Origin: Desulfotomaculum sp.
GTDB taxonomy: Bacteria > Bacillota > Desulfotomaculia > Desulfotomaculales > Desulfohalotomaculaceae
Length of the DNA stretch: 56,318 nt
Direction of reading: 5' to 3'
Assembly (NCBI GenBank): GCA_017656165.1
Contig: JACDOL010000006.1
Coordinates: forward strand, 1-56,318
In this document: one piece after another, positions 5,722-36,517 of the stretch
Layout of the letters: each line of letters begins with the position of its first letter
How positions within the stretch are numbered: position 1 is the stretch's first letter
Translations under genes and position numbers: made by a program
Notes under the pieces: generated by a model
The model's input: the letters and a program-made list of their open reading frames with translations, nothing else
Database searches by the model: none
What the model was told of the DNA's origin: nothing

Positions 5722-5745
5722 TACATCCCCCCTGAGGTAGCTTAA

Positions 5746-5765
5746 AAGTAACTAACTGGTTACTT
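5746..5765. promoter_or_regulatory. Palindromic operator, probably for the TetR repressor
   Basis: AAGTAAC-6 nt-GTTACTT is a perfect 7-bp inverted repeat just upstream of the TetR gene, in the region between it and divergent uvrC. Size and position fit a TetR operator; the assignment is inferred. Confidence 0.65.
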
Positions 5766-5868
5766 ACTAATTTTACGCCTGCCAGCCTTTACCTGTCAAT
5801 TAAATAGGGTAATAACATTTCAAATTTGATGGTGTTTTAGGTTAAAATTATGATAGGGGGTGAACCCT

Positions 5869-7728
5869 TTGCATTTAGAAGAAAAGTTGAAGCATATTCC
5901 TGACAAACCGGGTGTATATATCTACCGCGATGCCGGTGGAAATGTAATATACGTGGGTAAAGCAAAATCGCTAAAAAACAGGGTGCGGTCATATTTTCAA
6001 AAGAGCACCCATCAATCACCTAAAACGCGCACCATGGTGGGGCGGATTGCTGATATGGAGTATATTGTCACTGATTCGGAAGTAGAAGCGCTGATACTGG
6101 AATGCAACTTAATTAAAGAGCACCGGCCCCGTTACAATGTTCTGCTTAAAGACGACAAAACATACCCTTATATTAAAGTTACTTTAGATGAAGATTACCC
6201 GCGGGTTTTGACCACCCGCAGGCTGGTAAAAGACGGTTCCCGTTATTTCGGACCTTATACCCAGGCAGGGGCCATGAATGAGACTTTAAGGCTTTTAAAG
6301 CGCTTGTTTCCATTCCGCACCTGCACCAGCAGGCAGTTTGCCAACCGCAGCCGGCCCTGCTTAAACTACCATATCAAACGCTGCCAGGGGCCGTGTACTA
6401 AAAACGTTGACAGGGAACAGTACAGGGAAACTATCAATGAAATAATATTGTTTTTAGAAGGCCGCCAGGAGGATTTAATTAAACGCCTGGAAGAAAGAAT
6501 GCACCGGGCAGCAGAAAAATTGGATTTTGAACGGGCAGCTGAACTGCGGGACCAGCTGCAGGCGGTGAAGAAAGTTACCGAAAGGCAGAAAATAGTTTCT
6601 TCCGGCTTGGAAGACCAGGATGTCATTGCCATGGCCAGGGGACAGGGAGAAGTATGCGTAATGGTTTTCTTTATTAGAGGAGGTAAGCTCATTGGCCGGG
6701 AACATCACCTGCTGAAAAATACAGATGACTTAAGCCGCGGCGAGATTATGAAAGGTTTTCTAAAGCAGTACTATGCCCAGGTGGACTTCATTCCCCGTTA
6801 TGTACTGCTGTCTGAAGACATAGGAGAAGAAGCAGAACTGGTAAGCAGCTGGCTGTCTCAAAAACGCGGGTCTAAAGCGGTGGTGAAAACTCCTAAGCGG
6901 GGGGAAAAGGCCAGGTTAGTGGAAATGGCCGGGAAAAATGCCCTGCTGGTGCTGCAGCAGATGGAAACGGAAAGCCGGCTGAAGAGGGACAAATTGGATA
7001 ATGCAGCCGCTGAACTGGCCGGGGCCCTTGGGCTTTCCAAGCCGCCATACCGGATGGAATGCTATGATATTTCCAATATCCAGGGGGCTGAACAGGTGGC
7101 CTCCATGGTGGTTTTTGAAGAAGGTAAGCCCAGCAAGAGCCAGTATCGGCGTTTTAAAATTAAAACCGTTGAAGGACCCAACGATTTTGCTGCCATGCAG
7201 GAGGTTATTCACCGCCGCTTTTCACGGGGTCTGGAAGAGAGGAAACTTCTCAGTACCGGCCAAATCTCCAGCAAAGAGGCTAAATTTCACCGCTTTCCCG
7301 ACCTGGTTATCATTGACGGGGGTAAGGGGCAGCTGAATGCTGCCCGGGATGTAATGAAACTGCTGGGGGTGGGTGACATACCGACTTTCGGCCTGGCCAA
7401 GGAAGAAGAGCTGCTTTTCGCGGAAGGCCAAAGTGAGCCCATAGTTCTGCCGAGAAACTCCCAGGCTTTATACCTGGTACAGAGACTGCGGGACGAGGCC
7501 CATCGTTTTGCGGTGACCTATCACCGGAACTTGAGAACAAAAAGAAATTTAAAGTCGCTGTTAGATGAAATAGAAGGAGTTGGGCCGGTACGCAAAAAAG
7601 CCCTGTTAAAGGAGTTTAAGAATATAGAGGGAATAAAAAAGGCGGAACTGCATGAACTGGAAAAAGTGCCGGGAATGAACAAAAAAGCTGCCCGGGCGGT
7701 GTACCACTATTTCCGGCAGCAGGGGTAA
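5869..7728 (+). CDS. uvrC: UvrABC excinuclease subunit C
   Basis: Nuclease that makes both incisions in nucleotide excision repair. Domains in order: GIY-YIG endonuclease (about 10-90, PGVYIYRDAGG and YVGKAKSLKNRVRSYF), cysteine-containing linker, UVR motif (about 200-235), RNase H-like nuclease (YDISNIQG and VIIDGGKGQL), and C-terminal helix-hairpin-helix pair (VGPVRKKALLKEF). An upstream in-frame GTG at 5860 lies inside the ribosome site AGGGGGTGA (5855-5863); the TTG at 5869 is correctly spaced and gives the usual N-terminus, so I start there (619 aa). It is not adjacent to uvrA but is in the same neighbourhood. Confidence 0.97.
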   Translation: MHLEEKLKHIPDKPGVYIYRDAGGNVIYVGKAKSLKNRVRSYFQKSTHQSPKTRTMVGRIADMEYIVTDSEVEALILECNLIKEHRPRYNVLLKDDKTYPYIKVTLDEDYPRVLTTRRLVKDGSRYFGPYTQAGAMNETLRLLKRLFPFRTCTSRQFANRSRPCLNYHIKRCQGPCTKNVDREQYRETINEIILFLEGRQEDLIKRLEERMHRAAEKLDFERAAELRDQLQAVKKVTERQKIVSSGLEDQDVIAMARGQGEVCVMVFFIRGGKLIGREHHLLKNTDDLSRGEIMKGFLKQYYAQVDFIPRYVLLSEDIGEEAELVSSWLSQKRGSKAVVKTPKRGEKARLVEMAGKNALLVLQQMETESRLKRDKLDNAAAELAGALGLSKPPYRMECYDISNIQGAEQVASMVVFEEGKPSKSQYRRFKIKTVEGPNDFAAMQEVIHRRFSRGLEERKLLSTGQISSKEAKFHRFPDLVIIDGGKGQLNAARDVMKLLGVGDIPTFGLAKEEELLFAEGQSEPIVLPRNSQALYLVQRLRDEAHRFAVTYHRNLRTKRNLKSLLDEIEGVGPVRKKALLKEFKNIEGIKKAELHELEKVPGMNKKAARAVYHYFRQQG

Positions 7729-7771
7729 AGAACTTAGGATTCCATTATATGTGCCGGTGTATTTTCGGAGC

Positions 7772-7790
7772 GTAAATACCTTGGCAGTGG
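7772..7790. repeat. Partial copy (3' half) of a dispersed intergenic repeat
   Basis: GTAAATACCTTGGCAGTGG matches the 3' arm of the full element at 51214-51304. The 5' arm is absent here. It lies in the uvrC-HAD spacer. Confidence 0.45.
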
Positions 7791-7829
7791 TTGTAATCTC
7801 TGAATTCTTTTTAATTTAGGAGGTATAGT

Positions 7830-8624
7830 GTGAGTTACAAGTTAATTGCTGTGGACATGGACGACACCCTTTTAGACAGCAGCTTAAATATATCTGAACG
7901 GGTAATGGAAGCGGTGCGAAAGGTTCGGGAAAAGGGCATCCATATCACCCTGGCCACCGGGCGGATGTTTCGTTCAGCCAAGCCTTACGCTGAAAAATTA
8001 GGCATTAATGTGCCGCTTATTACTTACCAGGGTGCCCTGGTTAAAAATGCATTATCAGAGGAAGTTTTAATGCACCGGCCGGTACCTCTCGACCTGGCCC
8101 GGCAGGTGGTGGCAGTAATAAAAGAATACGGCTATCACATTAATCTTTACGTAAATGATAACCTGTATGTGGAAAAAATGACTCCTGAAGCAGAATTGTA
8201 CCAGAAAATCAGCAGAATTAAAGCCCACCCGGTGGGGGACCTGCTGGAATTTATCCAGGAACCACCTACAAAGGTACTGGCTGTTGCCGATGAACAGAAA
8301 ATAGACGTTTTGCTGCGGGAAGTAAAACCCCTTTTTGGATCCCAGCTGCACATTACCAAGTCTAAGCCCCAGTTTTTAGAGTTTTCTCATCCCAGGGCGA
8401 CCAAAGGTGATGCCCTGGCCATGCTGGCAGAGCAGATCGGTGCTGGACAGCATGAGGTTATGGCCATAGGAGACGGGTACAACGATGTAGAAATGCTTAA
8501 ATATGCCGGCTTGGGCGTGGTGGTGGCCAATGCCAGGGATGAAATAAAAGAACTGGCAGACTACGTGGCTCCTTCCAATGATGAAGATGGAGTGGCATAT
8601 GTTCTTGAGAAATTTGTGCTTTAA
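7830..8624 (+). CDS. Cof-type HAD-IIB family phosphatase
   Basis: Haloacid-dehalogenase superfamily hydrolase, probably a sugar-phosphate or nucleotide phosphatase. Motif I DMDDTLLD (about residues 9-16) gives the nucleophile Asp and acid/base Asp; motif II is TLATGR; motif III is the Lys in TKGDAL; motif IV is GDGYNDVEML near residue 213. The C2-type cap sits between about 85 and 190. At 264 aa it has the standard Cof/YidA length. GTG start after TTAGGAGG. It is monocistronic or loosely coupled to its neighbours. The substrate cannot be read from sequence. Confidence 0.9.
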   Translation: MSYKLIAVDMDDTLLDSSLNISERVMEAVRKVREKGIHITLATGRMFRSAKPYAEKLGINVPLITYQGALVKNALSEEVLMHRPVPLDLARQVVAVIKEYGYHINLYVNDNLYVEKMTPEAELYQKISRIKAHPVGDLLEFIQEPPTKVLAVADEQKIDVLLREVKPLFGSQLHITKSKPQFLEFSHPRATKGDALAMLAEQIGAGQHEVMAIGDGYNDVEMLKYAGLGVVVANARDEIKELADYVAPSNDEDGVAYVLEKFVL

Positions 8625-8726
8625 AAATTTAATTGAAGGTAAGTGATTAAATAATACGGTGCAGGCCCAAACTACCTGTAATGTAAAAAAACGGCCAAAG
8701 CCAAGCGGCCGGGAGGGGGCTATCTT

Positions 8727-9701
8727 TTGAGCGGGTATGTTATTGGTACAGACCTGGGTGGAACTAAAATTCTTACCGCTTTAGCAGATATAAACGGCAC
8801 TGTTTTGGCGGAATTGAGACAGCCTACCGGTGCCGGTGAAGGGCCGGAAAGGGTAATAGAGCGAATTGTGGACAGCATAACGGCCCTGCAGCACAAATGC
8901 GGGGTTCCTCCCGGTGCATTGATGGCTGCTGCTGTTGTGGTGCCGGGCCCGGAATTGGATACCGGGCAGGGCATTGTACATTTTTCCAACAACCTGGGGT
9001 GGAGAAATGTAGAATTGAAAAAAGTGCTCCAGAACAGGCTTCAAGTACCGGTATATATTGAAAATGACGCCAATGCCGCAGCCCTGGGTGAACATATTTA
9101 CGGGGCAGGGGACGGTATCCAGGATATGGTTTACATTACCGTCAGTACCGGCATTGGCGGGGGAATTATAATTAACGGCCGGATATACCGCGGTGTATCA
9201 GACGGGGCCGGGGAAATTGGGCATATGACTATTATGCCGGACGGCCCTCCCTGTACCTGCGGGAATGTTGGCTGCTTAGAGGCCCTGGCTTCCGGTACAG
9301 CCATTGCCCGGGCAGCACTGGAATTAATAGAAGAGGGTGGGGGAGAGGCAGTAATTAAAGCTGCCGGTGGAAACATCAATGAAGTTGATGCCAGAGCTGT
9401 GGCAGCTGCTGCCCTAAACGGCGATGCCGAAGCAGGGGTAATTATAAACGGGGCGGCCAGGGCACTGGGAATCGGTATAGCCAATATAGTCAACGTTATA
9501 AACCCGCCGCTGATTGTGCTGGGCGGTGGAGTGATGGAAAGCAGGGAACTTTTCTGGCCGGTAATGGAAAGGGAATTACAGGACAGGTGCTTTAAAGTTC
9601 AGCTTAAAAACCTGAAGGTGGTACCGGCGGCACTGAGTACCAGGGCCGGGGTGCTGGGTGCGGCGGCCCTGGTACTGCAGAATTTAGAAATTTGCAGTTA
9701 A
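8727..9701 (+). CDS. ROK-family glucokinase
   Basis: Phosphorylates glucose (or a related hexose) with ATP. Visible are the N-terminal phosphate motif DLGGTK (about residues 9-14), the catalytic-region motif [11 protein letters not shown], the ROK zinc motif [11 protein letters not shown] (about 170-180), and the C-terminal LGGGVME adenosine motif. At 324 aa it is typical of Gram-positive GlcK. TTG start after GGGAGGGGG. It stands just before rapZ-yvcK-whiA, and with the downstream glycolytic operon makes this a carbon-metabolism neighbourhood. An intergenic CGGCC/GGCCG hairpin lies right before the ribosome site. Confidence 0.9.
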
Positions 9702-9763
9702 ACTTAATAAATAACATAAAAAAGCGGTGCAGTTTTCTGCACCTGCTGAAAAGGAGCGGCTTT

Positions 9764-10615
9764 ATGCTGAGGTTTTTAATTGTTACCGGTCTTTCCGGGG
9801 CAGGCAAAACCACTGCAGTGCGCATTTTAGAAGACTTAGGTTTCTTTGTGGTAGACAACCTGCCTCCCACTCTAATACCAAAATTTGCAGAGCTTTGCGA
9901 ACATTCTGCGGCAAAAAAAATTGCCCTGGTGGTGGACATCCGGGGTAGAGAATTTTTTGACAAAGTATTTGATGCACTGCAGGATTTGGATGATAAAAAT
10001 GTTGGATATGAAATATTATTTTTAGAGGCATCAGATGAAGTGCTGGTACAGCGCTACAAGGCATCCCGCCGCCGCCACCCGCTGTCCGGCGGGGAAATAC
10101 TGGAAGATATTAGAGCTGAGCGGGAGCGGTTGAGAGAACTGCGGGGCAGAGCCAACAAGATAATTGATACTTCTAATTTGTCAGTAAAAGAGCTGAAGAA
10201 AGAAATATACAGTGCTTACGGTGATGAGCGCCAGGATAATGATCTTTTCATTACCGTTATCTCCTTTGGATACAAGCACGGTATACCGCTGGATGCCGAC
10301 CTGGTAATGGATGTGCGTTTTCTTCCCAACCCGTATTACGTACCTGAACTGCGCAGCCTTACCGGCAATGACCCGGCTGTTCAGCAGCATGTGTGCAGTT
10401 CTGAAGTAACCAGTGAATTTAAAGATAAGTACGCTGAATTGATAGAATTTTTAATTCCCCACTACATTAAAGAAGGAAAGGCTACTCTCACCATAGCTAT
10501 TGGCTGTACCGGCGGGATGCACCGCTCGGTGACGCTGGCCAACTGGCTGGGGGAATTCCTGCGCAAAAAAGGATACAAAGCAGCAGTAAGGCACCGGGAT
10601 ATTAAAGAAGACTAG
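9764..10615 (+). CDS. rapZ: RapZ/YvcJ nucleotide-binding protein
   Basis: P-loop protein that binds nucleotides and, in other bacteria, RNA; it links cell-envelope precursor control to small RNAs or phosphorylation. Walker A is GLSGAGKT (residues 9-16), followed by the hallmark [10 protein letters not shown]; the C-terminal RapZ domain has [10 protein letters not shown]. The ATG at 9764 follows AAGGAG; an extension to 9692 would cross a hairpin (GGTGCAG/CTGCACC at about 9726-9743) and lacks family similarity. 283 aa. First of the conserved rapZ-yvcK-whiA trio, with yvcK starting about 11 nt downstream. Confidence 0.95.
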
Positions 10616-15164: not shown

Positions 15165-16577
15165 TTGCGTTTGGATTTCGGACTTCATTTAGAACAAAGC
15201 CAAAAATTAATAATGACCCCCGAACTGCGCCAGGCCATTAAAATTCTGCAGATGTCTTCATTGGAGCTGTCCCAGTTTGTTGACCAGCAGGTACAGGAAA
15301 ACCCTTTACTTGAATTTGATGAGGGGGGTGAAAGGGGGGGCTTGACAGAGGTAGAAACCGGGGAAAACCGGGAAAAGAGCAGTGAAGAGTACGATGTTGA
15401 CTGGCAGGAGTACTTTCATGACAGCAGCGATCTCGGTTACCCGGTTGGGCAGAGAGAAGAGATAAACCAGGAAAACAGTTTTGAGAACTTCACAACCAAA
15501 GCGCCTACCTTGTTTGAGCACCTTACTTTTCAACTGGCCATTTCCAACTGTCCAACTGAACTGGTGGATATTGTACAGTATTTAATTGGTAATTTGGACG
15601 CCAGCGGTTACTTGAAAATAACAGTAGGGGAAGCGGCTGAAGAATTAGAGCAGTCCCCCGAAAAGGTGGCCCAGGCATTGGAGGTGCTGCAGTCTATGGA
15701 GCCTGCCGGGGTGGGTGCCCGGGACCTAAAAGAGTGTCTAATGCTGCAGGTAAAACACCTGGGTTTGCGGAATAAAATCCTGGAGGAATTAATTAACAAC
15801 TACCTGCCGGATTTGGCAAAAGGCAGAATAGATAAAATAGCTGCTGAACTGCAGGTTAATATAAAAGAAGTTCAACAGGCAGCAGACCAGTTGAAGTTTT
15901 TGGACCCCAAGCCGGGACGGAATTTTTCTAACTATGGTGAAACCAGGTTTATTGTACCTGACGTCGTGGTAGAGAAAATTGAGAATGAATACATAATTTT
16001 AGTAAATGATATTACTGCGCCGAGAATTAAAGTAAATAATTTTTACCGCCAGGCTGTCCAAAAAAATAATCAAAATATTGATAGGGATACCCGGAAGTAT
16101 GTGGAGGCGAAACTAAATTCTGCTTTGTGGTTGATCCGCAGCATTGAGCAGAGGCGGCTGACACTGTACAGGGTAGCTAAAGAACTGGTGGAACAGCAGA
16201 GAAATTTTTTGGATCACGGCATCAAGTACTTAAAGCCGCTGGGGTTGAAAGAAGTGGCAGGCCGGCTGGGACTGCATGAGTCCACAGTGAGCAGGGCCAC
16301 AGCTAACAAATACATGCAGACTCCCCGGGGTGTATTTGAAATGAAATATTTCTTTTCCACCGGTATTAAGAGTAAAGAAGGTTCACAGGTTTCTACAAAA
16401 AGCATTAAAAAAATGCTGCAGGAGATAATTGCCCAGGAAGATCCCCAAAGACCATACAGCGACCAGAAAATTGCCGATTTGCTGGAAAAACAGGGTGTTA
16501 AAATTTCCCGCCGCACGGTGACCAAGTACAGGGACGAACTGCAAATACCATCTGCTTCAAAAAGAAAAAGGTATTAA
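15165..16577 (+). CDS. rpoN: RNA polymerase sigma-54 factor
   Basis: Alternative sigma factor that needs AAA+ activators and reads -24/-12 promoters. Region I has the Gln/Leu-rich activator-contact helix (LIMTPELRQAIKILQ at about residue 17). The acidic region II is about 50-115. The core-binding domain and helix-turn-helix follow (ESTVSRATANKYMQ near 370). The C-terminal RpoN box SRRTVTKYRDE (about 448) is intact. 470 aa; TTG start after GGGAGTGAACGGGG. Its activator partner and one target promoter lie at 30-32 kb in this window. It immediately precedes gap, where many Firmicutes carry cggR. Confidence 0.97.
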   Translation: MRLDFGLHLEQSQKLIMTPELRQAIKILQMSSLELSQFVDQQVQENPLLEFDEGGERGGLTEVETGENREKSSEEYDVDWQEYFHDSSDLGYPVGQREEINQENSFENFTTKAPTLFEHLTFQLAISNCPTELVDIVQYLIGNLDASGYLKITVGEAAEELEQSPEKVAQALEVLQSMEPAGVGARDLKECLMLQVKHLGLRNKILEELINNYLPDLAKGRIDKIAAELQVNIKEVQQAADQLKFLDPKPGRNFSNYGETRFIVPDVVVEKIENEYIILVNDITAPRIKVNNFYRQAVQKNNQNIDRDTRKYVEAKLNSALWLIRSIEQRRLTLYRVAKELVEQQRNFLDHGIKYLKPLGLKEVAGRLGLHESTVSRATANKYMQTPRGVFEMKYFFSTGIKSKEGSQVSTKSIKKMLQEIIAQEDPQRPYSDQKIADLLEKQGVKISRRTVTKYRDELQIPSASKRKRY

Positions 16578-26163: not shown

Positions 26164-26634
26164 ATGCCGCAAAAAACCGGTGATCGTGTTGTTACTGACA
26201 ACCGTAAGGCACGACATCTATACCATATACTAGAAACTTATGAGGCAGGTATTGCCTTGAAAGGTACCGAGGTAAAATCCCTGCGGGCGGGTAAAGCCAA
26301 CCTCCAGGACAGTTTTGCTCGCATTGAAAAGGGAGAACTGATGTTATATAATATGCATATAAGCCCTTATGAGCAGGGAAATATATTTAACCATGAACCT
26401 AAGAGAACACGTAAGCTGCTGATGCACAAGTACGAAATTAACCGCCTGCTGGGTAAAACCCAGGAAAAAGGCTTAACATTAATACCGTTAAAAGTATATT
26501 TTAAAAATGGGAAGGCAAAAGTACAGCTGGCATTGGCAAAAGGGAAAAGGGTTTATGACAAAAGACGTGATATTGCTGAAAGAGATGCTAAACGTGAAAT
26601 ACAAAGGGTAATAAAAGAAAAACAGTTTGGCTAA
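26164..26634 (+). CDS. smpB: SsrA-binding protein SmpB
   Basis: Binds tmRNA and mimics the codon-anticodon region in stalled ribosomes during trans-translation. The beta-barrel begins with [19 protein letters not shown] and contains [20 protein letters not shown]; the basic C-terminal tail ([20 protein letters not shown]) is intact. 156 aa, standard. ATG 26164 follows GGGGTGG. Its RNA partner ssrA starts 23 nt downstream, so the pair sits together. Confidence 0.98.
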
Positions 26635-26657: not shown

Positions 26658-27008
26658 GGGGGCGACTGGTTTCGACGGGGGAAACGGTGGCAAGAGGAGC
26701 GAGCCGGGATCCCACTTACCCGTAAAACAGTGGACTAAACACAAATGCCGAAGAAAATTACGCTTTAGCTGCTTAATTGACGCAGCTGCCTCCTACCTGT
26801 GCCGGGCCCGTGGCACGGGATAGGGGGACACACTAACGGGCTGGCTTAATCCCAATTCTCGGAGGGATTAAGCGAGACTTATCGAGATAGTCGTATCGAA
26901 GGCTGGTTGTGGTCGTCGGTACGGTGAAAGCAAAACACAACCTACGCTCGTAGAGCCTGTTGTGGCTGTTCCTCCGGACGGTGGGTTCGAATCCCCCCGC
27001 CTCCACCA
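26658..27008 (+). ncRNA. ssrA: Transfer-messenger RNA (tmRNA)
   Basis: The 5' end GGGGGCGACTGGTTTCGACG pairs through its acceptor stem with the 3' end CGCCTCCACCA; GGTTCGAATCC forms the T-loop. The 351-nt length is normal. The tag reading frame ends ...NTNAEENYALAA followed by TAA; the first residues depend on the resume codon, which in this frame would be CTA or AAC, not the usual Ala codon. The RNA rescues stalled ribosomes together with SmpB, encoded just upstream. Its tRNA-like 3' end is a frequent integration site for mobile islands. Confidence 0.97.
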
Positions 27009-27278: not shown

Positions 27279-27705
27279 ATGTGGTTCCCGGCAAGGAGAA
27301 CATATACAAAAGAATTTAAAAGGAAGCAGTAGGACTTTTAAAAACCAGCGGTAAATCTGTTGCTGCTGTAGCCAGGGACTTAGGCATTAATGAAGCAAAT
27401 CTAAGACGGTGGGTTGCTGATATTACCTATATATCTACTGGTGAAGAGTGGCTGTACCTGGCGGTTGTAATGGATTTAACAGTCGTGTCTCCCAGCAGCT
27501 GCTGGGAGACACGGAATGGTCTGTTCTATAAACAGGAAAGGTAACTGTTGGGGCAGTGCTGTAATGGAGAGTTTTAACCACCGCAATATAAAACACCTAC
27601 TCAGGTACGCCGGGACATATTCGAATACATAGAAATTTTCTACAAAGACTTCATTCATCATTAGGATATATGGGCCCGGAAAGCTATGAAAAACAGAGAA
27701 AATAA
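27279..27705 (+). pseudogene. Decayed IS3-family transposase (orfA/orfB remnant)
   Basis: Fragments of an IS3-type transposase in several frames. First comes an OrfA start with frameshift (RRTYTKEFKR, then LLKTSGKSVAAVARDLGI and LRRWV). A deletion joins this to the OrfB integrase core (DITYISTGEEWLYLAVVMDL). A second deletion, marked by a 30-bp palindrome, leads to NRKGNCWGSAVMESF. The C-terminus is in another frame (YKTPTQVRRDIFEYIEIFY, ending PESYEKQRK). Catalytic residues between these blocks are lost, so it cannot transpose. The left end of the element probably lies near 27208 (CCTCCCCCGGTTTGATGGAC). It borders the accessory region downstream of ssrA. Confidence 0.85.
27484..27513. repeat. 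30-bp perfect palindrome inside the transposase remnant
   Basis: CGTGTCTCCCAGCAG followed directly by its reverse complement CTGCTGGGAGACACG. It replaces the middle of the OrfB integrase domain, at the point where coding similarity jumps. Confidence 0.9.
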
Positions 27706-27908
27706 TCGCACTGGGAATACCGGTGGAATGGCTGCATTAGACGCTTCAAATACTCCGCAAGTAATCAAAGCTCTCGGAGTTGTTTTCTTGCAAGAGCAAT
27801 TAGTCAAGCGCTATGACGAACTTCGTTCCTCAACATGAACTGCCGTATAACGAACGGTACGTACGGTGGTGTGAGAGGACGGGAGTTAATCATTCCATTC
27901 TACTCGAT
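27706..27908 (+). mobile_element. 3' remnant of a group II intron (maturase C-terminus plus domains V and VI)
   Basis: Domain V is recognisable at about 27837-27872: TGCCGTATAACGAACGG then TACGTACGGTGGTG, close to the conserved bacterial form. Domain VI follows (GTGTGAGAGGACGGGAG ... TCTACTCGAT) with the unpaired branch-point A seven nucleotides from the AT 3' end at 27907-27908. Upstream, an open frame ending about 27837 (FLQEQLVKRYDELRSST) resembles the C-terminus of an intron-encoded reverse transcriptase (weaker). The 5' part is missing, cut off by the IS3 remnant, so the intron is dead. Its last bases form the stop codon of the gene on the other strand. Confidence 0.78.
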
Positions 27909-29228
27909 TTGCATCCTTGGTCCATACATGCCTAGTTTTATAAGCGAACCCTGATCAGGGTGATAACGGATAGACTTTTCTTCATAAAATGATCGCCATT
28001 CACTATTTGGGGAAATCCCTTCCCTTTGAGCCTCCGCCCTTAAATTACACCATAGGTTATTTTTAATAGAGTTTCTTTTTTTACCTGTATAGTTAGTAAC
28101 AAAATGTTCTTGTACTATGCAAACGGGGGCCATAAGAGCACCTAAGGATGTGGGTATATCCATTTCACTTACCTGCATCATTGTTCTTTGTGCGGCCCTG
28201 TAAATGAAATATTTTAAGTCTTGGTTGATTCTGGTTAAAATAACGGGCTTACATTCCTCTGCGGGGTTCATGGTACGCAGAATTGCTGTCAGTTTTTCCA
28301 TTAAACTAGCTTCGTCAATGCTGGCAGAAAAAGTTAATAATCTTGAAATGGGGTGAGACAGTTTTAACATGGTATTTTGGTACTGCAAAGGAGCGTTGGA
28401 TAAAACAGGAAAGCAATTTTTTGCAATGCCCATATAAACGTTTTCTGATTTTTGGGTTATTAACAATATGCTATCAGACGGACCCTTTTTTGCTGCCGCT
28501 ACCAGTTTAGCTGAAAAAAGTGAACCCGCTGTATATATTGGTAATTTGCGTGATTTAGTTTCGCTAAAGAGCATGCCATTATTACCTAACGTAAGTATTT
28601 TAGCGGTAATGTTATTGTTCAATATTGCTTTCTTTAATTGATCATAAAATGATTGTACCCCAGGTAGCAGTAGAGTGTTTATTAAAAGTAGATTCTCCCG
28701 GGTTGTATAACCTATTTTATTAAAGGTAGTGCCTATGCCGAATAAAACCTTCATACCTAAAATTTCTTTAGTAATATTCGATAATTTTGATTCTGATACT
28801 TTTAACCAAGAAAAAAAAGAAGGATTAACTGCCAATGCCGCAACGTCATGGCCGATAAAGTTTTTTAGTGTGTTTTTAAAATTCCTCTCCCCGGTTACCG
28901 TTTCACTAAAAATTAATTTTCTAAGGGGTGATTTAGAAAGGGGAGGAATATTGTTTATGATTTTAGGCAAATAACGGATATAGCCTACCTTAAATTGCGG
29001 CAGTATACCTTCTTCATATAATTGGGGGAAATCAACAGTAACCAATATCATATTTATATGCTTGGAGGAGATAGAACAATTTAATAGTAACATTGATAAA
29101 ACTTCGTTAAAGGCTGTGTAAAAGTCTGGCCCGATGTTACGATTTACTTGCCCACATATAACATCGCCTAGTGCCAATATACCGGATATTTTGTTATCTT
29201 CAACAGACAGACTGATTGCAAAGTTCAT
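27900..29228 (-). CDS. Degenerate HyuA-like (hydantoinase/oxoprolinase) protein lacking phosphate-binding motifs
   Basis: Full-length but divergent relative of the HyuA protein at 34967-36517. Aligned blocks include VTVDFPQLYEEG (against GTTHCTNAVVER), GYTTRENLLLINTLLLPG (GLLERENATVLNAALVD), AKILTLGNNGMLFS (AKIYFGQNDGTLMS) and a colinear C-terminus. The N-terminal DVGGTNTD and internal DVGGTTTD ATP-binding motifs are both gone (LSVEDNKISG, ITQKSENVYM), so catalysis is unlikely. 442 versus 516 aa. ATG start. Last gene of the activator-DUF917 operon, 17 nt after DUF917. The final codons and stop come from intron sequence. I infer a regulatory or structural role; a decaying gene is the alternative, but the frame is intact. 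Confidence 0.75.
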   Translation of the reverse strand: MNFAISLSVEDNKISGILALGDVICGQVNRNIGPDFYTAFNEVLSMLLLNCSISSKHINMILVTVDFPQLYEEGILPQFKVGYIRYLPKIINNIPPLSKSPLRKLIFSETVTGERNFKNTLKNFIGHDVAALAVNPSFFSWLKVSESKLSNITKEILGMKVLFGIGTTFNKIGYTTRENLLLINTLLLPGVQSFYDQLKKAILNNNITAKILTLGNNGMLFSETKSRKLPIYTAGSLFSAKLVAAAKKGPSDSILLITQKSENVYMGIAKNCFPVLSNAPLQYQNTMLKLSHPISRLLTFSASIDEASLMEKLTAILRTMNPAEECKPVILTRINQDLKYFIYRAAQRTMMQVSEMDIPTSLGALMAPVCIVQEHFVTNYTGKKRNSIKNNLWCNLRAEAQREGISPNSEWRSFYEEKSIRYHPDQGSLIKLGMYGPRMQIE

Positions 29229-29245
29229 ACTATGCCTCCAATAGT

Positions 29246-30352
29246 TTAACCAAAATAGTAATTATAGTGGATTTTCTCCAAGGGTATATATTCCATTTTG
29301 TTGCCGAAGGAGTGTGGCCCCACAACTGATAAAGCCCGTTTTGTACGTAACAAGTTAGGAGATGGGATGCCAATTACCGCCACATCCATGCCGGTGTGGA
29401 TCTCATTGTTATTTAATGGCTTTCCCGAAGGGTATTCAAGAAAAGAAATTATATCTGGTACCATGGCCACAACCATGTTATTGCGGTAGGCGAAAACATT
29501 TTCATTCTGGAAAAGAACATTAAAAGTGTCATTATTATAGTTTTTGATACCGTTTAAGAGAACAGAGTTAAGCATTAATCTGTCAATGTTCCCGATCTCA
29601 GCAACTGTACCGATGAAGAGTTCGATGGCTCGGCCGTAGATAGAGTTCTTGGTGCATGAAACCAGATCCGCAAATGCGTCTTCATAACTACCCTTTTGTA
29701 AAGCACTCCCTAGATCAACCGCAAAGGAAATTGTGCCGGGAACCATGTATTCCTTAACTTTTCTGCCGCTCATGGCAAAACCGGCAAAATAACCAACTCC
29801 GCCGTAATTCATCAGCGCCTTTCTGGCATTGATCTCCAGCATAAAATTATCCCCATCGTAAAAGTTGTATTCTTTTCCATCGGGGGTTACTAGGGAAAAA
29901 GGAGTACCGCTTTGTCCGTAAATATGAAATGTGGTCATTTGCAAATCCGGGAAGGCTCGGCCCATTCCATCCCCATCAATTAAGGGTAGGCCGCAGTATG
30001 CTGCCACCAACAAAGGGTAGAGATTGTTAACCCCTGCACCTTCCAAGGCGTATAAGGCATCAATCTTAAGGTTCATAGATCTTTCTAATAATCTGATGGC
30101 CCTTGCTCCCTCGGTGCCGTCGGGCAAATTTTCCTCCATTAATTCTGGTGATCCTAGCAATCCCACCGCAGCAACGTTGAAATCATCCGGGATTTGATGA
30201 TAAGGTATTAATTCTACCTTTAGCTTATTATGGCTTAAATAGTTCTCCAGCAGCGGACATAGGATTAGAGCGTTTCCTGCACCTCCGGAACCCAGTAAAA
30301 TGCTGCCCGCAGAAAAGGTTTGCATTATAGAGCTATCCAGATACTTTAACAT
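29246..30352 (-). CDS. DUF917 family protein, paralogue in the regulator operon
   Basis: 368-residue DUF917 protein (a family whose Pfam name, from memory, now refers to S-methyl-thiohydantoin desulfurase). The core DGDGMGRAFPDLQMTTFH (about residue 130) and C-terminal IGIPSPNLLRTKRALSVVG are conserved. The N-terminal LLGSGGAGNAL differs from LLGTGGGGDPY of the second copy at 33870, so the glycine-rich loop and its Asp-Pro are changed. It lies 10 nt downstream of the sigma-54 activator gene and 17 nt before the degenerate HyuA gene, in one operon. DUF917 and HyuA proteins typically travel as pairs, as they do here twice. Confidence 0.85.
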   Translation of the reverse strand: MLKYLDSSIMQTFSAGSILLGSGGAGNALILCPLLENYLSHNKLKVELIPYHQIPDDFNVAAVGLLGSPELMEENLPDGTEGARAIRLLERSMNLKIDALYALEGAGVNNLYPLLVAAYCGLPLIDGDGMGRAFPDLQMTTFHIYGQSGTPFSLVTPDGKEYNFYDGDNFMLEINARKALMNYGGVGYFAGFAMSGRKVKEYMVPGTISFAVDLGSALQKGSYEDAFADLVSCTKNSIYGRAIELFIGTVAEIGNIDRLMLNSVLLNGIKNYNNDTFNVLFQNENVFAYRNNMVVAMVPDIISFLEYPSGKPLNNNEIHTGMDVAVIGIPSPNLLRTKRALSVVGPHSFGNKMEYIPLEKIHYNYYFG

Positions 30353-30362
30353 ATGATTAAAC

Positions 30363-32093
30363 TTACTCCTTAATTTTGTATTTTTTAATCCAGCGGTAAA
30401 GAGTGGCCAGGCTTATACCAAGATGATTGGCTGCTTGCTTTTTCCCTTTGGTATCCCAACCATAAGTGTCAAGGGTATGTATAATTTCATCACGAATCCT
30501 TTTGCTTTTAGAAGTATACTTATGGTGTAAAGGTGCTGCCCTTCCCCTATCATCACTAATTGCATCTTTGGCAATAACTGGTGTTTGGCTGTGGCTTAGG
30601 GGTAGATCCTCAGCGGAAATAACATCCTTATCATGGATGTTAACTAAATATTCAACCATATTCTCCAGCTCGCGTACATTACCGGGCCAGGGGTATGACA
30701 ATAGTTTTTGAGTAGCAGCATAGGATAGAATTTTAAAACTTTTGTTAAGACTTATACAATACTTTTTAAGGAAATAATTGAGCAGTAGATTAATATCCCC
30801 TGGGCGTTCCCTTAATGGCGGTATATATATGGGGATAACGTTTAATCTAAAGAAAAGGTCTTTTCGAAAAGTTCCTTCTTTGATTTTTGCCTCTAAGTTT
30901 TGGTTGGTTGCTGCAACTAAACGAACATTAACAGGAATAGGTTTGGTGCCGCCAATCCGGTCAATGCATTTTTCTTGTATCACACGCAGCAGCTTAACTT
31001 GTAGTGCCAGGGGCATATCGCCAACTTCGTCCAAAAACAATGTTCCGCCATTGGCTAACTCAATTTTACCGGGCTTACCGCCCTTTTTTGCCCCGGTAAA
31101 AGAGCCTTCTTCATAACCAAACAATTCGCTTTCCAGTAAATGTTCCGGTATGGCAGCACAGTTTATGGCCACAAAGGGACCGGTGGAGCGATGACTTATT
31201 TCGTGTATGGCTTGGGCTATCATTTCTTTACCGGTACCACTTTCACCCCTGAGCAGAATAGTAGATTCAGAGCTGGCCACCTGTTGAACAATATCTATTA
31301 CCTTTATTAAAGACGGGTCTTTACCAATAACTTTGGGCAAAATTGCCCCGTTTTTTTCTTTAGAGGTGTATTTCTTTTGTTGTAATGTTTTTTTGGTATG
31401 AACCAAGGCTCCAATAAACTTTTTATTATAAAAGAACGATTTCCTATGCAGCTGAAGGTCGCCACTGGTGTGTGGTATGGTAAAATCAAGTTCCTTTTTT
31501 CTTCCTAAATCGGAAAATAACGATTGGCTAAATTCTTGGTTCTCCAATATTTTTGTCAGATTTAATTCTTCAGCAACTTCATTCACACCAACTATTTTTT
31601 TATTTTCATCCAGAAGAGCTACCCCTTCTGGAATCATGTTAATTACATAACTAAGCTGCTGTCTAACTAGTAGTTCGAGCTTTTTGTACTTTTCTTTCTC
31701 TAACAGAGAATTAATGTACATGGCATAATTCTGTAAAACCTGCACCAGGGCATTGGTATCCATTGAATTAAAAATATGCTCTGCGTTTTTCTTAAATTGT
31801 ATACAGACAACCCTACTTTTCTTACCTTCAAAAAACGGATAACATACCTCTAAGATCAAAGGGCAATTTTTTAATTGCGGACAACTGCCACAGAGCATAT
31901 GCCTGGTGGGGGCGTTAATAATGATGGGTATTTTGCTTCTTATTGATTCTTTTAAAGATGGCAGTGCATCATTAATTAAAAGGTTATTAGATGTTGAATA
32001 AATAATATTTTTATTTTCCCATATTGTTATTTCACAATGAAATAAATGTTTCAAGCTAATAACAGCACTTTTATAATCATGAATATTGAACAT
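30363..32093 (-). CDS. Sigma-54-dependent enhancer-binding regulator
   Basis: AAA+ activator of sigma-54 RNA polymerase. The N-terminal sensor (1-140) has a Cys cluster at residues 68, 71, 77 and 84 (CGSCPQLKNC), as in Clostridial bEBPs that may bind metal or Fe-S. A PAS-like domain follows (about 145-240). The AAA+ domain (about 260-490) has Walker A GESGTGKE, the sigma-contact loop as GSFTGA (Ser for the usual Ala), Walker B GTLFLDEVGD and R-finger region FRKDLFFRLN. The C-terminus is a Fis-type HTH (KKQAANHLGISLATLYRWI). ATG 32093 follows GGAGCGAACA; a TTG at 32105 is less likely. It is divergent from an operon with a sigma-54 promoter, its probable target. Confidence 0.95.
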   Translation of the reverse strand: MFNIHDYKSAVISLKHLFHCEITIWENKNIIYSTSNNLLINDALPSLKESIRSKIPIIINAPTRHMLCGSCPQLKNCPLILEVCYPFFEGKKSRVVCIQFKKNAEHIFNSMDTNALVQVLQNYAMYINSLLEKEKYKKLELLVRQQLSYVINMIPEGVALLDENKKIVGVNEVAEELNLTKILENQEFSQSLFSDLGRKKELDFTIPHTSGDLQLHRKSFFYNKKFIGALVHTKKTLQQKKYTSKEKNGAILPKVIGKDPSLIKVIDIVQQVASSESTILLRGESGTGKEMIAQAIHEISHRSTGPFVAINCAAIPEHLLESELFGYEEGSFTGAKKGGKPGKIELANGGTLFLDEVGDMPLALQVKLLRVIQEKCIDRIGGTKPIPVNVRLVAATNQNLEAKIKEGTFRKDLFFRLNVIPIYIPPLRERPGDINLLLNYFLKKYCISLNKSFKILSYAATQKLLSYPWPGNVRELENMVEYLVNIHDKDVISAEDLPLSHSQTPVIAKDAISDDRGRAAPLHHKYTSKSKRIRDEIIHTLDTYGWDTKGKKQAANHLGISLATLYRWIKKYKIKE

Positions 32094-32137
32094 TGTTCGC
32101 TCCAATTTAGTAAAAGATTTTTATTGATTATAATATA

Positions 32138-32260
32138 TTTTCTCACCCTAAACAAGCAAGGTGAATTATTGAGAAAAGACGAAAAATATTGATAGAAATT
32201 TATATAATTTTAATATTTTCGTTTTGCAAGTGAGAAAAATTGTTGTAGTTTTTGAGAATT
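32138..32260. promoter_or_regulatory. Candidate upstream activator sites (TGAGAAAA boxes)
   Basis: The 8-mer TGAGAAAA occurs at 32170-32177 and 32231-32238, inverted as TTTTCTCA at 32138-32145, with a variant TGAGAATT near 32253. Together with an imperfect CGAAAAATATT/AATATTTTCG repeat they lie 60-170 bp upstream of the sigma-54 promoter, where bEBP sites are expected. Site identity is inferred. Confidence 0.45.
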
Positions 32261-32296
32261 TTAACGTTTTTATTTATAAAATATAGTATTTATAAT

Positions 32297-32312
32297 TGGC
32301 ATATGTTTTGCT
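32297..32312 (+). promoter_or_regulatory. Sigma-54 (-24/-12) promoter of the permease-DUF917-HyuA operon
   Basis: TGGCATATGTTTTGCT matches the consensus TGGCAYRNNNNTTGCW at every defined position. Transcription should start near 32323, about 100 nt before the permease ATG. A bEBP gene is divergent and rpoN is in the same window. Confidence 0.9.
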
Positions 32313-32421: not shown

Positions 32422-33747
32422 ATGACCAATAACCATTCAGGTGACGATTATTCCCTGTCAAGGGTGCCAATGAGTGCTCGTACTCCCATGTGGAGGGTGT
32501 TGGTGATCAGGCTTGGCTCATTGGCCTGTGTGTCACAGTTAATGCTAGGGGCAGCCCTGGGTTATGGAATGACCTTCTGGGATGCAGTTACAGCAACTCT
32601 GTTGGGTTCTTTGCTGCTTTCTGCTGTTAGTTATGCTTTAGGTGCTGCGGCTTGTCGTGAAGGGTTATCCACCAGTTTATTATCTCGTTGGGCGGGCTTA
32701 GGCAAAATAGGTTCTTCAATAATTGGTGGTGTAATTGCCATTGCTCTATTAGGGTGGTTTGGGGTACAAAATTCAGTCTTTGCTGAAGGTTTGCATCAGG
32801 CCACAGGGATGTTTAATATTCAAATTTGGGCCTTTATCACTGGCATATTGGTAACAGTCATAGTTGTTTATGGTTTCAAACTCTTAAGCTTTACCGCTAA
32901 TATTTCCTTACCGTTATTTATGTTTGCTGTTTTAATAGCAGCAGTGCACTTATTATCTGGACATGATATTGGCACACTTATAAATGCAGCCCCCGCCGGG
33001 GAACCTCTGCCCCTGGCTGTGGCCACCACCATGGTTGCAGGTGGTTTTATGATTGGGGCAATTATTACTCCAGACATTTCCCGCTTTATGCGCAGTGAAA
33101 AAGATGTTTTCTGGATGACTGTCATTGGTATATTTGTGGGGGAATTAAGTATGAACCTGTTGGCGGTATTAATGGCGCTAGCAGTTAGGTCCAGTGATGT
33201 GGTTACCATTATGCTTTCGCTGGCAGGTTGGATTGGTGCCACTATCGTTATTTTCTCAACAATTAAGCTCAATGACTTGAACCTTTATTCCTCAACCTTA
33301 GGTATAACAAATATGCTTAATGCTTTGTTTAACATCAAACTAAACAGGGTAACAGCAACTTTGATTATAGGTATTTTCGGAACGGTGTTGTCCGTGTTAG
33401 GTATTATAAATTACTTTATTAACTTCCTGGTGCTGTTAGGTGTGGCAATACCCCCAGTAGCTGGTATTATGATTGTGGATTATTTTATCTTAAAGAGAAA
33501 CCGCAAAGTACTTGATGAAACCAGGGCTAAGGGGACCTTGCCAACAGAATGTGAGGTGTGGAACCCCATCTCAATGGTGGCTTGGGTTTTAGGCTTTTTA
33601 GTTGGTCAATTCGTTACCAACTTTGGCATCCCGGCTGTGAACTCTCTATTGGTTGGTGCCATCGCTTACTACCTGGGTATGAAGATTTATGGCGTGATAA
33701 CCTGCAAATCGCAAGTTGAATTTGCTAAAACAGATCAAGTTATCTAA
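32422..33747 (+). CDS. NCS1-family permease (cytosine/hydantoin-type)
   Basis: Twelve-helix cation-coupled importer of the nucleobase-cation-symport-1 family (CodB/Mhp1 relatives), which carry cytosine, purines, allantoin or hydantoins. Family features are SRVPMSARTPMW before helix 1, QLMLGAALGYG, the GWFGVQNSVF region of helix 3 and the ITPDISRFMRS loop. 441 aa. ATG after GAGGAGGATAAG. First gene of the sigma-54 operon; the linked DUF917 and HyuA-type enzymes suggest that the cargo is a small cyclic amide (inference). Confidence 0.87.
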   Translation: MTNNHSGDDYSLSRVPMSARTPMWRVLVIRLGSLACVSQLMLGAALGYGMTFWDAVTATLLGSLLLSAVSYALGAAACREGLSTSLLSRWAGLGKIGSSIIGGVIAIALLGWFGVQNSVFAEGLHQATGMFNIQIWAFITGILVTVIVVYGFKLLSFTANISLPLFMFAVLIAAVHLLSGHDIGTLINAAPAGEPLPLAVATTMVAGGFMIGAIITPDISRFMRSEKDVFWMTVIGIFVGELSMNLLAVLMALAVRSSDVVTIMLSLAGWIGATIVIFSTIKLNDLNLYSSTLGITNMLNALFNIKLNRVTATLIIGIFGTVLSVLGIINYFINFLVLLGVAIPPVAGIMIVDYFILKRNRKVLDETRAKGTLPTECEVWNPISMVAWVLGFLVGQFVTNFGIPAVNSLLVGAIAYYLGMKIYGVITCKSQVEFAKTDQVI

Positions 33748-33869: not shown

Positions 33870-34967
33870 ATGCGCAAACTAGATATTCAATCCATTGAAG
33901 ACATCGCCATTGGTGCAGCGTTACTGGGTACCGGCGGCGGTGGTGATCCTTATATCGGTAAACTGATGGCTATTCAAGCAGTAGAAGAATTCGGACCAAT
34001 TACACTGCTGGAGGCAGACGAAGTACCCGATGATGCACTGGTTGTCCCCACAGCAATGATGGGTGCACCAACAGTTATGGTAGAGAAAGTACCCAGCGGA
34101 GAAGAGGTTATTGGTGCTTTTAATACTTTGAAAAACTACCTGGGCCAAGAGATTTATGCCACCATTCCAATTGAAGCCGGTGGTGTAAATTCCATGATTC
34201 CGCTGGCATTGGCCGCCAGGTTAGGCATACCGGTGGTTGATACTGATGGCATGGGTCGTGCTTTTCCGGAACTACAAATGGTTACATTCCACTTGAATGA
34301 TGTATCAGCTACCCCCATGGTGATATGTGATGAAAAAGGAAATAATTTAATGCTAAACACCGTAGACAATGTTTGGACTGAAAAATTGGCTAGAAGTGCT
34401 ACTGTGGTGATGGGTGGATCAGTTATGCTGGCCATTTATCCCATGAAAGGGAACCAACTTAAATCAGCAGGTATTCACGGCATTATCACTTTAACCGAAG
34501 AGATAGGTAAAGCCATCCGGGGGGCAAAGGCAAAAAAAGTGGATCCCATTAAAGCTGTGTTGGATATTACCGGGGGATACGAATTGTTCCGAGGCAAAAT
34601 CAGTGATGTATCCAGACGTACTGTAGGCGGTTTTGCCCGGGGCGAAAGTAAACTCATTGGTATAGATAGCTACAAGGGCAAAACCCTTACATTGAATTTC
34701 CAAAACGAGCATTTAATAGCTCGTACTGAAGAAGAGGTGCTGGCCACAGTGCCTGATTTAATTGCAGTGTTAGACAGTGAAACAGCACATCCCATTACCA
34801 CTGAAGGCTTACGGTACGGAGCTAGATGTGTGGTAATTGGTATACCATGTAATTCTAAATGGCGTACAGAGAAAGGTATAGCAACTGTAGGACCGCGTTA
34901 TTTCGGTTATGACATAGATTATATTCCGGTGGAAGAACGTGTTATGAACAAGAGGGGGGACAAGTAA
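33870..34967 (+). CDS. DUF917 family protein (catalytic copy)
   Basis: 365-residue DUF917 protein with all recognisable motifs: LLGTGGGGDPYIG at residue 16, IEAGGVNSM, DTDGMGRAFPELQMVTFH and IGIPCNSKWRTEKGIATVGPR. DUF917 proteins are nearly always encoded beside HyuA-type hydantoinases; the Pfam name, as I remember it, refers to S-methyl-thiohydantoin desulfurase, so cyclic (thio)hydantoin chemistry is plausible but not shown. ATG after TAGGAGGGATAAG. Its stop overlaps the start of the HyuA gene by one base (TAATG), so the two are translationally coupled. Confidence 0.88.
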   Translation: MRKLDIQSIEDIAIGAALLGTGGGGDPYIGKLMAIQAVEEFGPITLLEADEVPDDALVVPTAMMGAPTVMVEKVPSGEEVIGAFNTLKNYLGQEIYATIPIEAGGVNSMIPLALAARLGIPVVDTDGMGRAFPELQMVTFHLNDVSATPMVICDEKGNNLMLNTVDNVWTEKLARSATVVMGGSVMLAIYPMKGNQLKSAGIHGIITLTEEIGKAIRGAKAKKVDPIKAVLDITGGYELFRGKISDVSRRTVGGFARGESKLIGIDSYKGKTLTLNFQNEHLIARTEEEVLATVPDLIAVLDSETAHPITTEGLRYGARCVVIGIPCNSKWRTEKGIATVGPRYFGYDIDYIPVEERVMNKRGDK

Positions 34968-36517
34968 TGAGTTACAGAATTGGCATTGACGTAGGTGGCA
35001 CCAATACTGATGCCGTTATACTAGATAAAAACCTGGTACCCATAGCTAAGGCTAAAACTCCTACCACTGCTGACGTAACAAGCGGTATTTATAACGCTAT
35101 TTCTTTGGTTTTAAATCAAAAAGAAGTGGATAGAAGTGAGATAAAATATGCAATGTTGGGTACAACCCACTGCACCAATGCAGTGGTAGAGCGCAAAAGA
35201 CTAAATAAAGTAGCGGTTATCCGCATCGGATTGCCGGCCACCGGGGCGATTAAACCCCTAACCGGTTGGCCCCAAGACCTTAAAGAAGCCATTGGCAATA
35301 TGTATTTTTTAGTTGGCGGTGGCCACGAATTTGACGGTCGGGAAATTGCTCCACTGGATGAAAAAGCAATTCGTGATATTGCTAAGCAGGTTAAGGGAGT
35401 GGCAGACTCTGTTGCCATAACTTCAGTTTTTGCCCCAGTGTCTACAGACCATGAAAAACGAGCAGCAGAAATTATTAAGGAAGAATTGGGAGATATTCCG
35501 GTATCGCTGTCCCATGAGATCGGTAGCATTGGCCTTTTGGAACGGGAAAATGCTACAGTGTTAAATGCAGCTCTGGTGGATGTGGCCCGCACCACCGCTG
35601 AAGGTTTTAAAGATGCCTTGGCAAGAGAAGGCATCGATGCCAAGATATACTTCGGACAAAACGATGGCACATTGATGTCGGTGGACTATGCTGTTCGCTA
35701 CCCCATTTTAACCATTGCCTGTGGCCCCACCAACAGTATCCGGGGTGCATCTTTTCTGACTAAACACAAAAATGCTCTGGTGGTAGACGTTGGGGGGACC
35801 ACAACGGACGTTGGAGTACTGGTTAACGGGTTCCCCAGACAATCATCAATAGCTGTAGAGATAGGTGGCGTGCGCACCAATTTCCGTATGCCCGACCTCA
35901 TTTCCATTGGCCTGGGTGGCGGGACTGTTGTTAGAGAAGGCAGTGAGGGTATAACCATAGGACCTGACAGTGTAGGCTACAGGATTACCGAAGCAGGCCT
36001 AGTATTTGGTGGTAATACTTTAACAACCACAGACGTGGTAACTGCCCTGGGTAAGGCAGCCATTGGGGATGTAACTAAGGTTAAAGACTTAAACCAAGAT
36101 ATGCTGAAGCAGACTTACAAAAAGATTGTTTCTATGGCGGAGGAAGTAGTTGACCGCATGAAGACCAGTTCTGAACCCATACCAGTAATACTGGTGGGCG
36201 GTGGCAGTGTAATACTGCCGGATGAACTGGTGGGAGCATCAGAGGTGCTGCGACCGGAACACTATGATGTGGCTAACGCCATTGGTTCCGCAATTGCCCA
36301 GGTGAGCGGGCAAATTGAACGGGTTTTTTCCATTGACGAATTGGGTAGGGAAGGTGCTCTGAAAATGGCCAAAGATATGGCAATAGAAGAAGCTGTCAAA
36401 GCTGGGGCCGACCCCGCAACCATTGAAATTGTAGAAATTGATGATGTACCACTGGCTTATATGCCTGGCAATGCTACCAAAATCAGAGTTAAGGCTGCCG
36501 GTAACTTGGCAGTTTAA
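34967..36517 (+). CDS. HyuA-type hydantoinase/oxoprolinase family protein
   Basis: ASKHA-fold, ATP-dependent ring-opening enzyme relative (hydantoinase A / 5-oxoprolinase N-terminal type). The N-terminal phosphate motif DVGGTNTDAVI (residues 7-17), LGTTHCTNAVVERK, GLLERENATVLNAAL, the central VVDVGGTTTDVGVL and the C-terminal LVGGGSVILPDEL are all intact. 516 aa, the DUF917-linked short form without a HyuB-type domain. Third gene of the sigma-54 operon. Contrast it with the degenerate paralogue at 27900-29228. The substrate is inferred only by family. Confidence 0.9.
   Translation: MSYRIGIDVGGTNTDAVILDKNLVPIAKAKTPTTADVTSGIYNAISLVLNQKEVDRSEIKYAMLGTTHCTNAVVERKRLNKVAVIRIGLPATGAIKPLTGWPQDLKEAIGNMYFLVGGGHEFDGREIAPLDEKAIRDIAKQVKGVADSVAITSVFAPVSTDHEKRAAEIIKEELGDIPVSLSHEIGSIGLLERENATVLNAALVDVARTTAEGFKDALAREGIDAKIYFGQNDGTLMSVDYAVRYPILTIACGPTNSIRGASFLTKHKNALVVDVGGTTTDVGVLVNGFPRQSSIAVEIGGVRTNFRMPDLISIGLGGGTVVREGSEGITIGPDSVGYRITEAGLVFGGNTLTTTDVVTALGKAAIGDVTKVKDLNQDMLKQTYKKIVSMAEEVVDRMKTSSEPIPVILVGGGSVILPDELVGASEVLRPEHYDVANAIGSAIAQVSGQIERVFSIDELGREGALKMAKDMAIEEAVKAGADPATIEIVEIDDVPLAYMPGNATKIRVKAAGNLAV

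Follow-up and report, generated by a model that had tools for sequence, protein, structure and literature searches.

A pseudo-hydantoinase and a DUF917 paralogue as a probable enzyme-derived co-sensor of a sigma-54 activator in Bacillota

Results

A sigma-54 activator (bEBP) encoded in one operon with altered copies of a DUF917 protein and a hydantoinase (DUF917' and HyuA'), and divergently from a permease-DUF917-HyuA operon carrying the intact counterparts, was found on the stretch of Desulfotomaculum sp. DNA analyzed here (56,318 nucleotides; the window). We consider it rather probable that DUF917'-HyuA' is an enzyme-derived co-sensor controlling the bEBP, which would in turn drive permease-DUF917-HyuA. 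The features of the locus are as follows.

27900..29228, minus strand: HyuA', pseudo-hydantoinase; phosphate motifs and VGGGS gone, catalytic block of ~55 residues deleted, hydantoinase fold retained in the model
29246..30352, minus strand: DUF917' (S-Me-THD-like), putative regulatory paralogue
30363..32093, minus strand: sigma-54 activator (bEBP); GAF-like domain with HxLCxxCPx5C, helix of ~40 residues, PAS-like domain, AAA+ domain (GESGTGKE, GSFTGA), Fis-type HTH
Within 32140..32258: four TGAGAA repeats (32140-32145, minus; 32170-32175, 32231-32236 and 32253-32258, plus), candidate activator binding sites
32296..32312, plus strand: predicted sigma-54 -24/-12 promoter TTGGCATATGTTTTGCT, pointing to the permease
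32422..33747, plus strand: transporter of the NCS1 type (cytosine permease family), first gene of the catalytic operon
33870..34967, plus strand: catalytic-type DUF917, GTGGGGDPY intact
34967..36517, plus strand: catalytic-type HyuA, every motif intact
15165..16577, plus strand: rpoN (sigma-54), 16 kb away in the window

The reading frames and the leftward operon (bEBP, DUF917', HyuA', with intergenic gaps of 10 and 17 nt) are as the first-pass annotation had them; the rightward operon diverges from it across a 316-bp intergenic region. The open reading frame of the bEBP (30363-32105, minus strand) begins with TTG, but the ATG at 32093, already chosen in that annotation, is preferred because most relatives align from this methionine. 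TTGGCATATGTTTTGCT is the sole match to TTGGCAYN5TTGCW in the window (1 observed versus 0.09 expected), and the four TGAGAA hexamers all lie upstream of it. A chance match was rejected on this count and because the site is correctly positioned in 23 of 24 loci (see below). With rpoN inside the window, this genome encodes the cognate sigma factor. On the far side of HyuA', an smpB-like ORF (26164-26634) is closely followed by a tmRNA gene (26658-27008; tag AEENYALAA), 0.9 kb away from where the HyuA' gene ends; an apparent IS3-like transposase remnant (27280-27830, read by eye) separates the tmRNA gene from HyuA'.

HyuA' lacks both DVGGT(N/T)TD phosphate motifs, as had been claimed: GIDVGGTNTD and VVDVGGTTTD of HyuA are replaced by SLSVEDNKIS and LITQKSENVY, respectively. 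Two larger changes come on top of these, the deletion of the block GLGGGT..GPDSVGY..FGG..TTTDV (residues 315-377 of the catalytic copy) and the loss of the VGGGS motif. In all 24 regulatory HyuA proteins identified (see below) this block is deleted, with 1-9 of its 63 residues left, and the phosphate motifs are altered; the REN motif is retained in 23 of them. The neighboring catalytic HyuA is intact in 23/23 cases, its phosphate motifs being kept with conservative changes only. Copies from Bacilli retain traces of the motifs (e.g., DVGETNTD and VVDVGGSSVR in L152), those of the clostridial type essentially none. Judged by these residues, HyuA' has clearly lost its ATP-using machinery.

A two-sequence comparison of HyuA' with the neighboring HyuA gave 22% identity over 163 aa (E 7e-7), no Pfam or NCBIfam model matched it, and a sequence search against the PDB returned nothing useful. 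Its kinship with the HyuA family is nevertheless secured by its relatives and its fold. The AlphaFold2 model (pLDDT 89.8) adopts the hydantoinase/caprolactamase fold, with a Foldseek TM score of 0.76 to the NMHase 9h03, and resembles N-methylhydantoinase, acetophenone carboxylase and caprolactamase structures. Thus, HyuA' is like the HyuA/caprolactamase/acetone-acetophenone carboxylase family (PF05378, PF01968; 9h03, 5l9w, 6yra) in fold and colinear sequence, but unlike it in having neither the phosphate motifs, VGGGS and the catalytic block nor a Pfam match. The "HyuA" of a uric acid pathway (PMC12507026) was discarded as a relative, since that protein is an amidohydrolase and only the name is shared.

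DUF917' shares 32% identity with the catalytic DUF917 and carries both domains of the DUF917/S-Me-THD family (2o3i), scoring above the Pfam cut-offs for PF06032 (E 1.3e-42) and PF20906 (E 1.9e-47) but falling far short of the NCBIfam desulfurase cut-offs (53 versus 450 bits). It differs from this family, described only as experimentally uncharacterized (PMC11055893), in forming a separate branch and in having lost otherwise conserved residues. Consistent changes affect D26 (to N, K or R), the TTEGLRYGxR segment, K243 and R249. Among 48 other DUF917 proteins, 81 positions show conservation of 93% or more; the clostridial-type copies have lost 25 of these, including most of the TTEGLRYGxR segment. 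The altered glycine loop highlighted in the first-pass annotation (GGAGNAL) is present in the window copy, but relatives keep GGGG (GGGGNAF/KTK), and the loop was therefore dismissed as the key lesion. The D-x-DGMGRAFPE core is retained (D124, D126 and GRAFPE, plus E102 and E280). DUF917' is thus altered, and catalysis or binding might persist.

The bEBP bears the signatures of its family (Sigma54_activat PF00158, E 4.6e-72; HTH_8; Walker A GESGTGKE; GSFTGA; Fis-type HTH). Its sensor region was modeled as GAF-like and PAS-like domains joined by a long helix, and the top PDB matches of the N-terminal model were the complexes of DhaR(N) with DhaK and DhaL (4lrx, 4lry, 4lrz; E 7e-9 to 2e-7), albeit weak ones (TM 0.52, 13% identity) and in a common domain combination, GAF-PAS. 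The two bEBPs from Bacilli that were scanned contain a PAS domain only; a mode of binding via GAF can therefore not be general, and the surface for contact with the pair may differ between the groups. A motif HxLCxxCPx5C, possibly for metal or redox sensing, is conserved in the GAF-like domain of clostridial-type bEBPs (window 31863-31901; residues 69-81 counted from TTG), partly retained in L060 and not apparent in L052.

The first-pass annotation had proposed searching for such triads beside a second DUF917-HyuA pair. A first profile scan of contigs with the HyuA' alignment gave no matches; the scan with the DUF917' alignment succeeded. The triad adjoining a catalytic operon was found in 24 intact loci from Bacilli and clostridial-type Bacillota, 11 clostridial-type divergent and 13 Bacilli co-directional, and in all of them the bEBP is immediately upstream of the regulatory pair and the catalytic operon is a neighbor (the contig of L049 ends after the permease). 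Two genomes of the same order carry HyuA' relatives of ~40% identity in the full divergent arrangement, and two of another family carry relatives of ~21% identity; a class-level search covered the identical 113 genomes as the order-level one. Further Bacillota with the triad are G489, G150, a Desulfosporosinus MAG, a Thermosediminibacterales MAG, Candidatus Petromonas and Thermoanaerobacter; the third gene of the latter is too diverged for the profile and was assigned from its position and motif remnants. The third triad gene of L060 (11065-12276; 403 aa), likewise undetected by profiles, still shows remnants of ERE and ETPIRYL where these are expected. In Bacilli the order is bEBP, regulatory DUF917, regulatory HyuA, permease, DUF917 and HyuA, then usually a racemase; this arrangement occurs in 13 of 400 sampled genomes, which are all 13 that had a match to the regulatory HyuA. 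No intact triad without a neighboring catalytic operon was seen in this search, whose queries were regulatory sequences.

An additional locus, L048, is disrupted: HyuA' is interrupted by stops, the bEBP is N-terminally truncated and the permease/DUF917 region is deleted, with a permease fragment fused to the truncated bEBP (5400-9784) and the DUF917 of the catalytic operon missing. In L063, L065, L067, L068, L070 and other actinobacterial loci, a third DUF917-like ORF, highly diverged (about 75-170 bits), comes after permease-HyuA-DUF917-DUF917 and may be another re-purposed copy.

A -24/-12 site (score of at least 11 of 13) was located upstream of the catalytic genes in 23 of the 24 intact loci. 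It reads into the catalytic genes in 11/11 divergent loci; in Bacilli, 12/13 loci have it oriented towards the pair or the permease, L149 being the one without. Over all 24 regions TGAGAA, a hexamer picked after viewing a few loci, was observed 58 times versus 8.4 expected. A regulatory link of the pair and the bEBP to the catalytic operon is well supported by comparative evidence. A neighboring racemase (PF01177), joined in some loci by DUF1177 and a hydrolase of the nitrilase family or by an M19-like dipeptidase (assigned by eye), points to hydantoins or other cyclic amides as candidate substrates.

The position of the pair relative to this site bears on a reading in which DUF917'-HyuA' would be a non-catalytic or re-specialized accessory of the metabolic enzyme (a scaffold, an allosteric subunit or an enzyme for a different substrate), the adjacency to the bEBP would reflect operon history, and the bEBP would sense the ligand itself via GAF/PAS. 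In L141-L143 and L150-L153 the pair is indeed placed after the sigma-54 site and ahead of the permease, co-oriented with the catalytic pair. The core retained in DUF917' and the bEBP's own sensor domains are also in keeping with an accessory. However, the pair is grouped with the bEBP, outside the sigma-54 operon, in all 11 divergent clostridial-type loci, as it is in L144-L147, whose sigma-54 site separates the regulatory HyuA from the permease. Also, HyuA' evolves at the pace of the bEBP sensor region rather than that of the catalytic pair (mean identity in the clostridial-type loci 0.28 each versus about 0.70), and some catalytic operons (L104, L116, G015) have no triad beside them, so that the pair is not required for catalysis. 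An accessory role is accordingly judged unlikely, even if it is the strongest competitor of the co-sensor.

The regulatory copies are under purifying selection. On near and moderately close pairs, dN/dS (NG86) was 0.14-0.29 for HyuA', 0.05-0.13 for DUF917', 0.10-0.15 for the bEBP and 0.02-0.11 for the catalytic pair, and frames are full-length across the 24 loci at identities down to less than 20%. The argument that intact frames speak against simple decay thus held. Of the observations that the first-pass annotation named as refuting its proposal, none was made: frames are not randomly disrupted, the dN/dS check gave no sign of relaxed selection, and the triad extends well beyond this genome. 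In the trees, the regulatory copies fall on one side of a branch for both DUF917' (SH-aLRT 97, discounting one duplicate row labeled otherwise) and HyuA' (SH-aLRT 94), which is compatible with a single origin of each protein, although, with a quick tree method and long branches, not firmly so. When the divergence of the catalytic genes was removed, HyuA' and the bEBP N-terminus correlated with a partial r of 0.81 in the clostridial-type and 0.47 in the Bacilli set, HyuA' and the permease with 0.35 and -0.03, respectively, and DUF917' and the permease with 0.74 in the clostridial-type set; the small size and phylogenetic dependence of these sets, together with the high last value, make this evidence soft, and it was given little weight.

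Discussion

The first-pass annotation had proposed that an inactive pair signals to the activator. Its regulatory half agrees with the conserved triad, the -24/-12 site and the DhaR(N)-like sensor region; the inactivity that it ascribed to both proteins is less certain for DUF917'. The resemblance of the sensor region to DhaR(N) with bound enzyme subunits favors a co-sensor derived from a retired enzyme pair. An ancestral DUF917-HyuA pair opening cyclic amide or hydantoin-like rings would have been duplicated. One copy would then have lost the ATP chemistry, through the shared deletion of the HyuA block and erosion of the nucleotide motifs, and kept the fold, with DUF917' keeping much of its conserved core. 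Made together with the bEBP or within its regulon, the pair probably forms a complex that would recognize the transported substrate or an intermediate. Its contact with the sensor region of the bEBP, which consists of GAF-PAS in clostridial-type loci and of a lone PAS domain in those Bacilli that were examined, may gate the AAA+ activity that acts on the sigma-54 promoter of permease-DUF917-HyuA. What we infer here is that the pair forms a complex, binds a ligand and contacts the bEBP directly. Control could be of either sign: the ligand-bound pair would activate, or inhibition would be relieved. The narrower proposition, that a complex of a pseudo-hydantoinase and a DUF917-like protein, derived from a catabolic enzyme, measures that enzyme's substrate and directly gates the sigma-54 activator, as a dedicated family reaching from Bacilli to clostridial-type Bacillota including Desulfovirgula relatives, is in our estimate evenly balanced.

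As a sign variant of the co-sensor, the pair could be an anti-activator that, like NifL with NifA, keeps the bEBP inactive until a ligand sets it free. The genetic evidence for this version is the same, partner-controlled bEBPs are known, and NifL-NifA (9qq6) appears in the N-terminal fold list, at rank 12. Yet, the present evidence fits either sign of control, and the nearer fold match, DhaR, has two controlling partners; we regard anti-activation specifically as rather improbable. Decay of a duplicate, for which the low conservation of HyuA' (the least of any gene of the locus) and the broken L048 might be invoked, was rejected as very improbable in view of intact frames in 24 loci, dN/dS well below 1, the specific shared deletion and the conserved gene order, the catalytic operon of L048 being broken too.

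The co-sensor proposed here has a precedent. In E. coli, the enzyme subunits DhaK and DhaL control the regulator DhaR (Bachler et al. 2005, EMBO J, as cited in PMC6643234). DhaR, likewise a bEBP-family regulator, controls the operon of an enzyme and binds subunits of that enzyme through its N-terminal region, and the window bEBP is like it in its tandem GAF-PAS sensor region (as modeled), of which DhaR(N) is the best solved match. The enzyme families differ, and whereas the partners of DhaR are working enzyme subunits, those proposed here are dedicated paralogues, one without catalytic motifs, with a second, intact pair for the chemistry. DhaR acts at a sigma-70 promoter; the promoter here is of the -24/-12 type. 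The Lactococcus DhaQ-DhaS system is alike in that a paralogue of an enzyme subunit co-activates the operon of the working enzyme, and unlike in that the regulator, DhaS, belongs to the TetR family rather than to the bEBPs and in that only one kinase paralogue takes part. NifL-NifA is alike in that a bEBP is controlled by an adjacently encoded protein partner, as is proposed here, but the partner there, NifL, is a PAS protein resembling histidine kinases rather than a paralogue of an enzyme pair. The expectation that enzyme-derived sensors of a bEBP would be new thus fails for the principle of control by enzyme partners; as far as found, it stands for these components.

Within one genomic setting, the regulatory HyuA proteins form a series from an almost intact copy (L152: DVGETNTD, VVDVGG) to one beyond the reach of hydantoinase profiles, in which one can trace, and test, how an enzyme became a probable sensor. 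In Clostridioides difficile, the permease, DUF917 and hydantoinase genes of such an operon are in a list of regulated genes (PMC12915319). The pair is likely a system for recognition of the inducer, and a route to the substrate of the widespread permease-DUF917-HyuA operons.
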